Positions 15,352-46,590 of a DNA stretch of 64,000 nucleotides are shown here, piece after piece (position 1 is the stretch's first letter; each line of letters starts with the position of its first letter). The notes under the pieces are model-generated. The model ran no database searches. It was not told the origin of the DNA and saw nothing but the letters and a program-made list of their open reading frames with translations. Source of the stretch: an uncultured Lachnospiraceae bacterium (GTDB taxonomy: Bacteria > Bacillota > Clostridia > Lachnospirales > Lachnospiraceae). Location: the NCBI GenBank assembly GCA_946414885.1, contig CAMKQH010000001.1:62001-126000 (forward strand). Direction: 5' to 3'. The translations under genes and the position numbers were made by a program.

Positions 15352-15389
15352 GAAAGCCAACTTTCTGAATTCAGATGTTGGCTTTTTTT
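15352..15389 (+). terminator. Terminator after AraC regulator
   Basis: aaagccaac ... gttggcttt plus T-run. Confidence 0.8.
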
Positions 15390-15420
15390 TGTTATAATCC
15401 TTTTTGTGAGCGTCGAAGGA

Positions 15421-15513
15421 CTCGGGCCAGGGCGTCTGCCGCATCCCTCTCTTGGGAACAATTAGCCGCGTGACGTTCCCAAGAGAGGGATGCTGCAGAC
15501 GCCGGCCCGCGAG
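15421..15513. repeat. Long inverted repeat (about 36-39 bp arms, 15 nt loop) upstream of gmd
   Basis: ctcgggccagggcgtctgccgcatccctctcttgggaac (15421-15459) vs gttcccaagagagggatgctgcagacgccggcccgcgag (15475-15513). Confidence 0.9.
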
Positions 15514-15591
15514 ACCTTGGTATATGGCACAAGAAGGACTATATCAAAAACATTATGTCGTATGACGAATAATAAAAAGTGGAGGATTGAC

Positions 15592-30543: not shown

Positions 30544-32160
30544 TCATGCAAAATAGTTTTGTAATGTCTTTTCAACGGCACCAATTCCGGAGGAAAGCTC
30601 TGCAAAGTATTTCTTTACAAGGTCTGACATGCCAATCTTGATCAGGTCGACGCCGAAGATTTTTTCATTGCGAAGGAGCTCGTCAAGACAGGAGAGGTCT
30701 TTTTCCTTCCCGTTCAATTCAAAGCCAGCGACGTAGGGAGTGGCAACGTCAAGCAGGGGATCGGGGCTAAGCGCGAAAGCATTTCCCTGATCATCCACGG
30801 CCATCAGGTATCGAAGCCAGCCGGCAAATACCAAGGGGATGAACTTTAAGTCATTAACGCTAAGGTCAGAGCGTTTTTGATAAGCCTTTATGGTCTCGCC
30901 GAAGCGGATCGCAAGCTTTTGGGAGGTATCCGTTGCAATTCTTTGAGGCGTGTCAGGCATGAAAGGGTTAGGGATTCTGACATTTACGACCGCGTCAATG
31001 AAGTCCTTCGGAGCAATGATTCCCGGATCAACAACGACGGGAAGTCCCTCCACATAGCCGATGGTTTCCACGAATTTCTTTAACAGGGGATTCTTCATCT
31101 CATCAGCGATCAAAGTATATCCGAGCAGGCATCCATATACGGCTAGCGTGGTGTGCAAAGGATTTAAGCAGGTGCATACCTTCATTTTCTCAACTTTGTC
31201 AACGGTTTCGCGGTCCGTGAAGATAATGCCGCCTTTATCGATGGGAGGCTTTCCGTTCGGGAAGGCATCCTCGATCACAAGGTATTCGCATTCCTCTGCG
31301 TTGACGAAGGGAGCGATGTATGTGTTCTTGGAGGTGATGACGGGCTCCAGATTCTCCATGCCGTCATCCAAGAGCATTTTTTCCACCTTGGCATCCGGTC
31401 TGGGGGTGATCTTGTCGATCATGCTCCAGGGGAAGGAAACCTTGGTCTTGTCATTGACGTAAGCAAGGAATTCCTTGTCGGCAAGGCCTTTTTCCGCCCA
31501 TTTTTCCGCGAAGGCATTGACTGCAGCGTAGAGCTTATCGCCATTATGGGAGCAGTTGTCCATGCTGACCATGGCAATGGGAAGCTTGCCGGCCTGAAAT
31601 CTTGCGTAGAGGAGGGATACGACTTTTCCAAGGTAGCTGCATGGCTTTTCGGGGCCGTTTTCGTAATCCTGCGCAACGCTGGGAAGCAGTTCACCCTTGC
31701 CGTCTGCAAGGCTGTAGCCTTTTTCGGTGATCGTGAAGCTGGCCATTTGGAGGCTGGGATTCTGAAAGATTTCTTTCAGTCTGCCGTACTCGGTTTCATT
31801 CTCGGAATCAAGGATCAAGGACTCCATGATGGAGCCAACCACGGTCTTTTCAACGGTTCCTGCAGCCTTTAGCGTAGCCAGGAGGCTTAGGTTGTCGTGG
31901 GGGCGGTTGCTTTTTTCGATGATCTCGTAATCATATCCTTCCGCAGCAATCAGGCCAACGTCGGTGATTCCCTGATTCAGGAGGTTTTGCATTACGTTTG
32001 CCTGGAATGCCCTAAAGATGTTGCCCGCGCCGAAGTGGATCCACGTGGGTCTCTCATGTGTATTTTTCTTTACTTTCTCATAATCAAACTCGGGCAGCCG
32101 GTATCCCTTTGCAAGGTACTCGGCCTTCCCTTCCCTGATTCCTTCTAACGTTAGTTTCAT
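30544..32160 (-). CDS. uxuB: Fructuronate reductase / mannitol dehydrogenase family (D-mannonate oxidoreductase)
   Basis: PTWIHFGAGNIFRAFQANVMQ..., CTCLNPLHTTLAVYGCLLGY; near mannonate dehydratase. Confidence 0.88.
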   Translation of the reverse strand: MKLTLEGIREGKAEYLAKGYRLPEFDYEKVKKNTHERPTWIHFGAGNIFRAFQANVMQNLLNQGITDVGLIAAEGYDYEIIEKSNRPHDNLSLLATLKAAGTVEKTVVGSIMESLILDSENETEYGRLKEIFQNPSLQMASFTITEKGYSLADGKGELLPSVAQDYENGPEKPCSYLGKVVSLLYARFQAGKLPIAMVSMDNCSHNGDKLYAAVNAFAEKWAEKGLADKEFLAYVNDKTKVSFPWSMIDKITPRPDAKVEKMLLDDGMENLEPVITSKNTYIAPFVNAEECEYLVIEDAFPNGKPPIDKGGIIFTDRETVDKVEKMKVCTCLNPLHTTLAVYGCLLGYTLIADEMKNPLLKKFVETIGYVEGLPVVVDPGIIAPKDFIDAVVNVRIPNPFMPDTPQRIATDTSQKLAIRFGETIKAYQKRSDLSVNDLKFIPLVFAGWLRYLMAVDDQGNAFALSPDPLLDVATPYVAGFELNGKEKDLSCLDELLRNEKIFGVDLIKIGMSDLVKKYFAELSSGIGAVEKTLQNYFA

Positions 32161-32177
32161 CTCATCACTCTTTCTGC

Positions 32178-32508
32178 CAGGATCCTGGCCATGGTTATGG
32201 TATCATGGATTTCGGCTGGGCGGCATGGTCCGCCGCGCAAGACACGCTTCGTTTTCTACTCGGGCCGCGCGCCTTATTTGTCGCCATTCGCCCTATCCGC
32301 CCGCAAGCGGGCACGGGCTCGATGGCGACGGCTAAGCGCAGCCCTCCTGACGAAAGCCTCGCTATTGTCTTCGCGCGGCGGGCCATGACGCCCAGCCAAA
32401 GTCCGTGCTGGGGTTCGCGTGGGGCTGGATTTGATGTTTGGGGGAGGGGGGCGACTGCCGCCGCAACCCGACTACCAAACCATTAAGCACCAAATCCAAC
32501 CCCGCGCG
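32178..32508. repeat. Non-coding nested palindromic block (unit A and adjoining inverted repeat)
   Basis: Arms 32207-32244 vs 32366-32404 (imperfect), inner gtcgccat/atggcgac and cccgcaagcggg; separate IR 32416-32441 vs 32475-32508. Confidence 0.8.
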
Positions 32509-32627
32509 AAATTATATTTATATAATTTTTTTATATTACTAAGCAATCTGCAAGTCCCATTCCATAAAGAGATATTGTGACGTGGAGATTACGTAAACGG
32601 GTTGGAACATGCCGGTGAGTCAGCACA

Positions 32628-32753
32628 GACGATAGCGAGGCTTTCGTCAGGAGGGCTGCGCTAAGCGCTGCCACAAAGCCCGTGCCCGCTTGCGGGCGGA
32701 TAGGGCGACTGGCAGCTTAAAGCTGCGCGGCCCGAGTAGAAAACGTAGCGTGC
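32628..32753. repeat. Inverted second copy (unit B) of the unit-A core
   Basis: Reverse complement of 32628-32753 aligns with 32243-32369 (shared ttttctactcgggccgcgc, cgccctatccgcccgcaagcgggcacgggct, gcgcagccctcctgacgaaagcctcgctat). Confidence 0.85.
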
Positions 32754-32799
32754 CTTATGGACTGCCCTTCTCCTTCGCCGTGACTAGGGAAAGCCATGC

Positions 32800-33867
32800 T
32801 TACTTATGGGACTTGCAGATCGCCTCCCAGAGTCCGTTGAGGTAGGTGGCGCCGAGTGCTCTGTCGTAGAGGCCATAGCCAGGCATTGCCACCTCGTCCC
32901 AGATCATGCGTCCGTGATCAGGACGGATGGGTCCTTCGAAACCGATGTCGTAAAGGGCGAGCATGATCTCGTACATGTCGAACGTGCCGTCGCTGGAAAG
33001 ATGTGCGGACTCCTCGAAATCAGTGGGAGAGTTAAACTTCAGGTTACGAACGTGCGCAAAGTGGATACGGCCTTTCAGGGAACGGATCATGTCGGGAAGA
33101 TCGTTTTCCAGGTTGGTGCCGTAGGAGCCGGAACAGAAAGTCACGCCATTGTGCGGATTGTCCACCATCTTCATCATCCGGAGAATGTTCTGCTTGTTGA
33201 TGATGATGCGGGGAAGACCGAAGACGCTCCAGGCGGGATCGTCCGGATGGATCGCCATGTTGATGTCATACTTGTCACAGACGGGCATGATACGCTCAAG
33301 GAAATACTTCAAGTTTGCGAAGAGCTTCTCGTCATCCACGTCCTTATACATTTCGAAGAGCTCCTTGATGTGTGCCATGCGTTCTGGCTCCCAGCCGGGA
33401 AGGATGGCACCGTTGGAGTCGCCGCTGATGGAAGCGAACATGTCCTCGGGATTTAAGGCGTCTACGGCTTCCTGCGTGTAGGCGAGAACCGTGGAACCGT
33501 CGGGACGAACCCGGGCAAGCTCCGTTCTGGTCCAGTCGAAGACGGGCATGAAATTGTAGCATACCATGTGGATGCCTGCCTGTCCAAGACGCTCCAGCGT
33601 GGTGATATAATTGTCGATGTATTTGTCGCGGTCAGGCGTACCAACCTTGATGGCGTCATGAACGTTCACGCTCTCAATGCCGACGAGCTGAAGGCCTGCG
33701 TCCTCAATTTCCTTCTTGAGGGCGAGAATGTCCTCCATCTCCCAAACCTCACCAGGCGCCGTGCCATAAAGGGTGGAGATCACTCCGGTCACCCCGGGGA
33801 TCTGACGGATCTGTTTCAAAGTAACCGTGTCGTACTTGCTGCCATACCAGCGCAAAGTCATCTGCAT
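32800..33867 (-). CDS. uxuA: Mannonate dehydratase
   Basis: MQMTLRWYGSKYDTVTLKQIRQIPGVTGVISTLYG...; SD ggagga upstream of ATG at 33867. Confidence 0.95.
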   Translation of the reverse strand: MQMTLRWYGSKYDTVTLKQIRQIPGVTGVISTLYGTAPGEVWEMEDILALKKEIEDAGLQLVGIESVNVHDAIKVGTPDRDKYIDNYITTLERLGQAGIHMVCYNFMPVFDWTRTELARVRPDGSTVLAYTQEAVDALNPEDMFASISGDSNGAILPGWEPERMAHIKELFEMYKDVDDEKLFANLKYFLERIMPVCDKYDINMAIHPDDPAWSVFGLPRIIINKQNILRMMKMVDNPHNGVTFCSGSYGTNLENDLPDMIRSLKGRIHFAHVRNLKFNSPTDFEESAHLSSDGTFDMYEIMLALYDIGFEGPIRPDHGRMIWDEVAMPGYGLYDRALGATYLNGLWEAICKSHK

Positions 33868-34056
33868 GTTTTTATCCTCCTGATCAATGGTAATAAATCC
33901 ATGGTACGCAAGCGAAAACACTTGCGTCCAGCTTTTGTTCTTAGTATAATCAAACCATAAATGCAAGAAAAGAATATATATTGCTGGAAATCATGTAAAA
34001 ATTGCTACTCTGGAAGATGGCGTGGATGGAATGATTTCAGGAAGTGAGGATGCAGA

Positions 34057-46314: not shown

Positions 46315-46393
46315 GAAATTCATGATTCATAATTTATAATGTCATTTAACTGATTAATGAAAGTTAATGGCTTGAAACAATCTCGAGGGGATG

Positions 46394-46547
46394 TTTGAAA
46401 TAGGCTCTCTCAGGCATGTGTGCCAAGCGTCGGTACTTATTCCGCGTATCGCGTGACGATTGTGCTTGTCGCAAGCGGCACGCGAGGGGAATTAGTACCG
46501 ATACGCTGCACTCATAGCGCGAGCGTGCCTGAGAGAGCCTATTCAAA
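46394..46547. repeat. About 154 bp imperfect palindrome upstream of purF-like gene
   Basis: aataggctctctcaggca vs tgcctgagagagcctatt; agcgtcggtacttattcc vs ggaattagtaccgatacgct; centre gcttg-tcg-caagc. Confidence 0.85.
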
Positions 46548-46590
46548 CAAAGCCCCGAGTTCTTCAAAATATACAGTAAGGAGAAATGAC

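Follow-up and report, generated by a model that had tools for sequence, protein, structure and literature searches.

A probably mobile hairpin element with locus-specific complementary arms in gene 3' spacers of a Lachnospiraceae bacterium and its relatives

The uxuA-uxuB spacer

The window analysed here, a 64,000-nucleotide stretch from an uncultured Lachnospiraceae bacterium (genome G000), carries two neighbouring genes on its minus strand. The upstream gene, uxuA (32800..33966; Pfam PF03786, matched at 495 bits), encodes a D-mannonate dehydratase and probably has its real start at an ATG near 33868. Downstream of it lies uxuB (30544..32160; PF01232/PF08125), the product of which, a fructuronate-reductase-like protein of the mannitol-dehydrogenase family, is consistent with UxuB. 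The genes are 642 nt apart, as against 16-211 nt in those relatives within the genus that have a readable spacer and no hairpin element, and 254-537 nt in those that carry hairpin elements.

A preliminary description had placed a non-coding block of nested and inverted palindromic repeats in this spacer. The block is indeed a repeat array: it consists of two copies, A and B, of one element in mutually inverted orientation, and a protein-coding origin can be rejected since its open reading frames have no Pfam match. Simple scans of the block found neither promoter-like nor terminator-like sites.

Copy A, described earlier as an imperfect palindrome of about 200 bp, extends from 32204 to 32407 (plus strand, with its core 'forward' on that strand) and is a complete hairpin of about 204 nt, recognised from its palindrome, from BLAST, from RNA folding and from an orthologue in the related genome G011 that is 98% identical. 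Its predicted RNA fold reaches -129.9 kcal/mol (z = -9.9), a value equalled by none of 200 shuffled sequences. The conserved core (32239..32370, plus strand) is delimited by BLAST matches to copy B, to the copies on contig C8 and to relatives, as well as by two covariance models (R1 and R2), and is enclosed by locus-specific outer arms (32204..32238 and 32373..32407) that are 86% complementary and pair with a stem score of 20.5, where the maximum among mismatched arm pairs is 10.5. The inverted recurrence of this core as a second unit also holds up, at 86% identity over 132 nt (E 1.7e-38, BLAST within the window): the core of copy B (32627..32756, minus strand, identified by BLAST and covariance model) runs opposite to that of A and is 'forward' along uxuA.

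The inner stem of copy B is degenerate in this genome (score 5.0), and its far arm (32543..32560) is an inverted copy of the 3' coding end of uxuA. The partner of this arm lies within the uxuA coding sequence (32806..32823, minus strand), to which it is complementary at 17 of 18 positions here and at 18 of 18 when compared with uxuA of G011. The stretch copied is made up of the final codons of uxuA, and G046, from which the element is absent, keeps a sequence close to it. This inverted repeat had not been remarked upon before. Between A and B, a previously proposed third inverted repeat (about 32414-32441 / 32475-32510, within a hairpin at 32414..32510) is real but weak (BLAST E 0.04) and at most a candidate member of the family, and its match to mir-2807 in Rfam is due to chance (23 bits against a cut-off of 54). 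The 12-bp palindrome CCAGGATCCTGG (32178-32189) that was thought to start the block does exist, but lies outside the element and adjoins the ribosome-binding site of uxuB; it is retained in G011 and G155 and missing in G018.

Copies and distribution

Four copies are present in this genome: A, B, one right behind proA (at about C8:70798) and one behind an aminotransferase gene (at about C8:93197). Of the 138 genomes of the genus, 9 gave matches to covariance model R1, which was built from seven copies. A gapped anchor pattern gave matches in 5 of 396 genomes of the family, four of these belonging to other genera, with zero matches in the same 396 genomes for the reversed pattern used as control. 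The wider model R2 detected between 1 and 15 copies in each of 14 carriers, including 8 in G218, a genome outside its training set, and no copy in G046. When R2 was run over a class-wide sample of 388 genomes, only this genome and two additional genera of the same family were recovered, with no copies outside the host family. Besides its own genus, six more genera of the family carry related copies. Searches of phage and plasmid records and of viral contigs gave no match, and Rfam 15 has no family for the core, either in the window at gathering cut-offs or in the block and the loci of the other copies at permissive E values. The assemblies are drafts, and copies at contig ends in G158 are possibly collapsed or truncated.

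Copies lie mostly just 3' of genes, often directly after the gene's intrinsic terminator, and since many relatives are without the element, it is dispensable. The preliminary description spoke of a MITE-like or structured-RNA repeat family splitting an operon, and held that a single copy without covariation would speak against it; the copies in this genome and its relatives, the short uxuA-uxuB spacers of relatives and the strong covariation described below agree with that suggestion. Multiple dispersed non-coding copies, as are characteristic of MITEs, are what we find, and the term 'MITE-like' is thus supported by the copy pattern, though a strict use would need a parental transposase and target duplications. 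A search for unpaired halves of the anchor pattern yielded no autonomous partner; the candidate carriers of cargo genes or apical loops that it returned proved to be ordinary copies, a branched subfamily in G230 or chance matches. Mobilisation by a Y1 transposase of the RAYT type was also considered and rejected, because the presence of Y1 (PF01797) is inconsistent among carriers: it occurs in 6 of 13 and was not found in G000, G018, G155 or G230.

A structured core with covarying stems

The core is a structured hairpin of about 110-150 nt. Across 33 divergent copies, the facing strands of an internal loop, GCGAGGCTTYCGT and GAGTAGRAAACG as read on the more stable strand, are nearly invariant, and the stems between and around them covary freely. 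Double changes occur at 11 of 47 pairs in alignment A1 and at 14 of 19 consensus pairs in alignment A4 (33 sequences). In A4, 124 cells are changed on both sides, as against 38.5 under shuffling (none of 500 shuffles reaches the observed value) and 10-24 in controls with partners slid, and 90.9% of cells are paired against 71.6% when shuffled and 31-45% when slid, although the copies are related, so that pair statistics are non-independent and the comparison with shuffles is inflated. That the structure is real is nevertheless very safe, in view of the controls with slid partners and of how many kinds of pair occur.

In 38 of 46 copies the more stable fold is that of the strand bearing GCGAGGC, complementary to 'forward', by a mean of 7.2 kcal/mol, a difference drawn from related and hence non-independent copies; copy A of this genome is an exception. 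These predicted folds are a weak hint that the GCGAGGC-bearing strand may be the RNA strand. Two elaborations of the core were also seen. In the G230 subfamily (L126-L129), one strand of the conserved internal loop carries two extra hairpins as an insertion, and the uxuA-uxuB element of G018 (L019) has about 60 nt of additional hairpin sequence within the apical portion of its core.

Outer arms

Within a site, the 45 nt on each side of the core are complementary to one another; arms taken from different sites are not. Matched arms score 17.8 on average and mismatched ones 5.45, and 34 of 36 copies score above the maximum of 1106 mismatched arm pairs, the two exceptions being one copy in G177 and this genome's copy B, which has an inner left arm wholly unlike that of G011. 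In part of the copies complementarity reaches further: at 46-165 nt out, 19 of 43 copies still lie above the 95th percentile of mismatched pairs. Among the 34 copies that have an upstream open reading frame end, the arm starts between -25 and +10 nt from the stop codon in 18, a count that includes several orthologous copies or short open reading frames.

Ends shared between copies occur in G218, the one genome in which they are constant, and partly in G414, and not in this genome or G158. In the G218 set the arms are common to the copies, with AATGTGCAAA / TTTGCACATT as the outermost inverted repeat, and the copy G218_4 already shows several compensated differences; G414 is intermediate, with a common inner stem and a local outer stem. 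The G218 set probably spread recently, and the G414 set partly so.

Several copies have further peculiarities in or beside their arms. Copies at L054 (G158) and L008:1440-1860 (G000) are flanked by tandem repeats of their arms, each arm on its own side and in up to about four units, as if arm copying had stuttered. Copies in G002 and G177 (L056, L057 and L064) have in common an extra one-sided tail of about 70 nt, CAGATTTATT...GCCAAC, in which TTGACA is a possible outward-facing -35 box. An excess of changes in left arms (L081 in G414/G586; A and B in G000/G011) was dropped as a candidate pattern, the aminotransferase site being in disagreement with it.

Site comparisons between genomes

The outermost arm at the proA site, AATTCCCC...TCGGGCGG, is common to G000 and G155, and their inner arms differ as a block, GGCGGGCCGCTTCTTACGG in G000 against ACCCTGCCTTAGG in G155. 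In both genomes the arms are nonetheless perfectly paired, over 40 bp in G000 and over 37 bp in G155, where there is a single gap of 2 nt, and their cores point in opposite directions. Inversion of the core is also evident at the aminotransferase/patatin site, where G018 is inverted relative to G000.

Losses are seen as well. In G011 the core of copy B has been cut out, leaving its stem behind, and in G155 a deletion has fused A and B. The proA site of G011 is without core and right arm, and a small palindrome remains. Since G000 is at this locus more closely related to G011 than to G155, loss is the simpler reading: the site may have arisen by deletion and not represent an ancestral, empty state. 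The sister genomes G414 and G586 have two sites in common and differ at one by absence; at two further sites they hold different elements, this element in G414 and TwoAYGGAY RNA in G586. Neither the proA site of G046 nor the G586 site matching L122 has a comparable palindrome. In G414, an array of ACGGAGC / GCTCCGT units stands beside the element in the right flank of L122, and this array too is missing at the G586 site.

Origin and maintenance of the hairpins

The element is dispersed, multi-copy, patchy, structured and non-coding, and its freshest set shares ends, all of which argues for non-autonomous mobile behaviour. The arms call for a further process, and block-wise complementary change, inversion of the core and the inverted copy of a gene end favour a mobile hairpin whose arms are maintained by template switching. 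We thus consider it fairly probable, from comparison of the sequences, that this is a mobile, non-autonomous, MITE-like hairpin of gene 3' spacers, the arms of which are homogenised and extended by template switching. Template switching between the arms of inverted repeats homogenises arms, inverts spacers and makes perfect stems in a single event (PMC8604942, PMC8794818). Under this model, the hairpin would cause replication to pause and the template to switch between arms; one arm would be rewritten from the other, so that changes spread as complementary blocks; the core would invert between the arms; and the palindrome would grow outward by copying the 3' end of the neighbouring gene, halting about where coding constraint begins. 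The outer arms would then probably stay complementary through repeated copying of one from the other. The dispersed copies suggest multi-copy spread. Active transposition by some enzyme and template switching as the driving process are inferred, and the same is true of any influence on the expression of uxuAB. A point against the model is that selection for pairing of the arms could produce some of these features.

Such selection is the essence of a different explanation, under which the copies are functional structured RNAs or 3'-UTR hairpins, acting in mRNA stability, termination or RNase III processing, and the arms are kept paired by selection alone. The position of most copies at gene 3' ends, with arms that often start at a stop codon, speaks for this, as do near-invariant internal-loop strands within covarying stems and the greater stability of one strand in most copies, which is what an RNA would show. 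However, orientation relative to the gene flips among close relatives, most relatives do without the element, and the simultaneous replacement of blocks in both arms is not readily given by stepwise compensation; we therefore regard this explanation as unlikely. Alternatively, the element might insert into the centre of pre-existing palindromes, such as terminators or REP-like hairpins, in which case the arms would simply be the target. Known IS elements are reported to target REPs (PMC1525189), copies are located behind intrinsic terminators, those in G230 are flanked by a TGAGTCA...TGACTCA hairpin repeat, and the small palindrome at the core-free proA site of G011 could be read in the same way. 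This is difficult to reconcile with the far arm of copy B, which copies uxuA coding sequence that is non-palindromic in relatives, and with the sites in G046 and G586 where no comparable palindrome exists; moreover, ordinary terminators do not reach the length of the perfect arms, 36-40 bp, and replacement of arm blocks after insertion requires another process anyway. Targeting of palindromes thus appears rather improbable as the source of the arms.

Such elements could also be exchanged by a site-specific recombinase that recognises the hairpin fold and not the letters, and would then be folded single-stranded DNA sites akin to attC. Conserved unpaired strands among freely varying stems, location at gene 3' ends, inversion of the core and the occupation of matching sites in sister genomes by unlike hairpin cores are all in keeping with this. 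In integron attC sites, however, the conserved boxes lie at the base of the hairpin and the apex is variable, while the present hairpin has its conserved part inside and a base that varies; there are also no gene cassettes, and we consider the explanation very improbable.

Returning to the mobile hairpin with template switching, a more far-reaching version can be put forward tentatively, as a possibility that we would not yet bet on: a selfish core that has landed behind a gene may palindromise the 3' spacer around it by repeated one-sided templating, copying host terminators and coding ends, with TwoAYGGAY and GTACT-type elements doing likewise at the same sites. If the mobile hairpin model is correct, the element represents an undescribed family in this Lachnospiraceae-like family, and provides dozens of natural sites showing large hairpins that are replaced in blocks and inverted. 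Whether the pairing of long RNA/DNA stems is upheld by selection for single compensations or by template switching would become directly testable in bacteria. Paired changes in stems may then reflect mutational copying and not solely selection for RNA structure, which bears on how covariation is to be read.

Comparison with other hairpins and known systems

Arm locus-specificity, flipping of the core and the occupation of the same sites by other hairpin families were beyond the view of the preliminary description. Two further hairpins lie within the window. One (15380-15560) is a giant near-perfect palindrome with arms GCGTCTGCCGCATCCCTCTCTTGGGAAC and a short loop AATTAGCCGCGTGAC, directly after an intrinsic terminator and without the element core. 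The other (46370-46590) has outer arms TGTTTGAATAGGCTCTCTCAGGC and a core AGCGTCGGTACTTA / TAGTACCGATACGCT; similar cores fill the uxuA-uxuB spacer of G046, where an Rfam search gave no match, and flank copies in G158, so that this type of core is apparently a third hairpin family. The element itself may be among the thousands of unnamed candidates of a human-microbiome survey (PMC8040213).

Most similar in lifestyle is TwoAYGGAY RNA (RF01731), a candidate reported from Clostridiales and the human gut (PMC2864571). Like this element it is a structured intergenic hairpin whose long outer stem covaries, and in G586 it stands where G414 has this element; its core, however, is of other sequence and branched. 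No copy of the element reaches the RF01731 gathering cut-off, nor does any part of the window, and identity with TwoAYGGAY was rejected, the RF01731 matches being neighbouring or replacing elements rather than this core. Such RNAs lie at or beside the same 3'-spacer sites (L164:430-545 and L166:325-394 in G586; L121 and L078 in G414), likewise with long local outer stems.

ERIC, YPAL and NEMIS are non-coding palindromic intergenic repeats of 100-200 nt, the transcripts of which form long stem-loops and can alter neighbouring mRNA (PMC2229807). The present element resembles them as a non-coding palindromic intergenic repeat, but while they have fixed termini and mostly target duplications, its copies have the core alone in common, and their termini vary from one site to the next in most cases. 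REP, REPIN and BIME sequences with their TnpA-REP (RAYT) proteins are likewise dispersed extragenic palindromes, and the G230 copies are bracketed by inverted REP-like hairpins; the core described here is far longer and covarying, and Y1 transposase was not found in several carriers, this genome included. Quasipalindrome correction by template-switch mutation brings about the same homogenisation of arms, inversion of the spacer and formation of perfect hairpins de novo (PMC8604942, PMC8794818), but the stems and spacers in those studies are short, whereas the hairpins considered here have arms of 35-150 nt around a spacer of about 130 nt, and at many sites.
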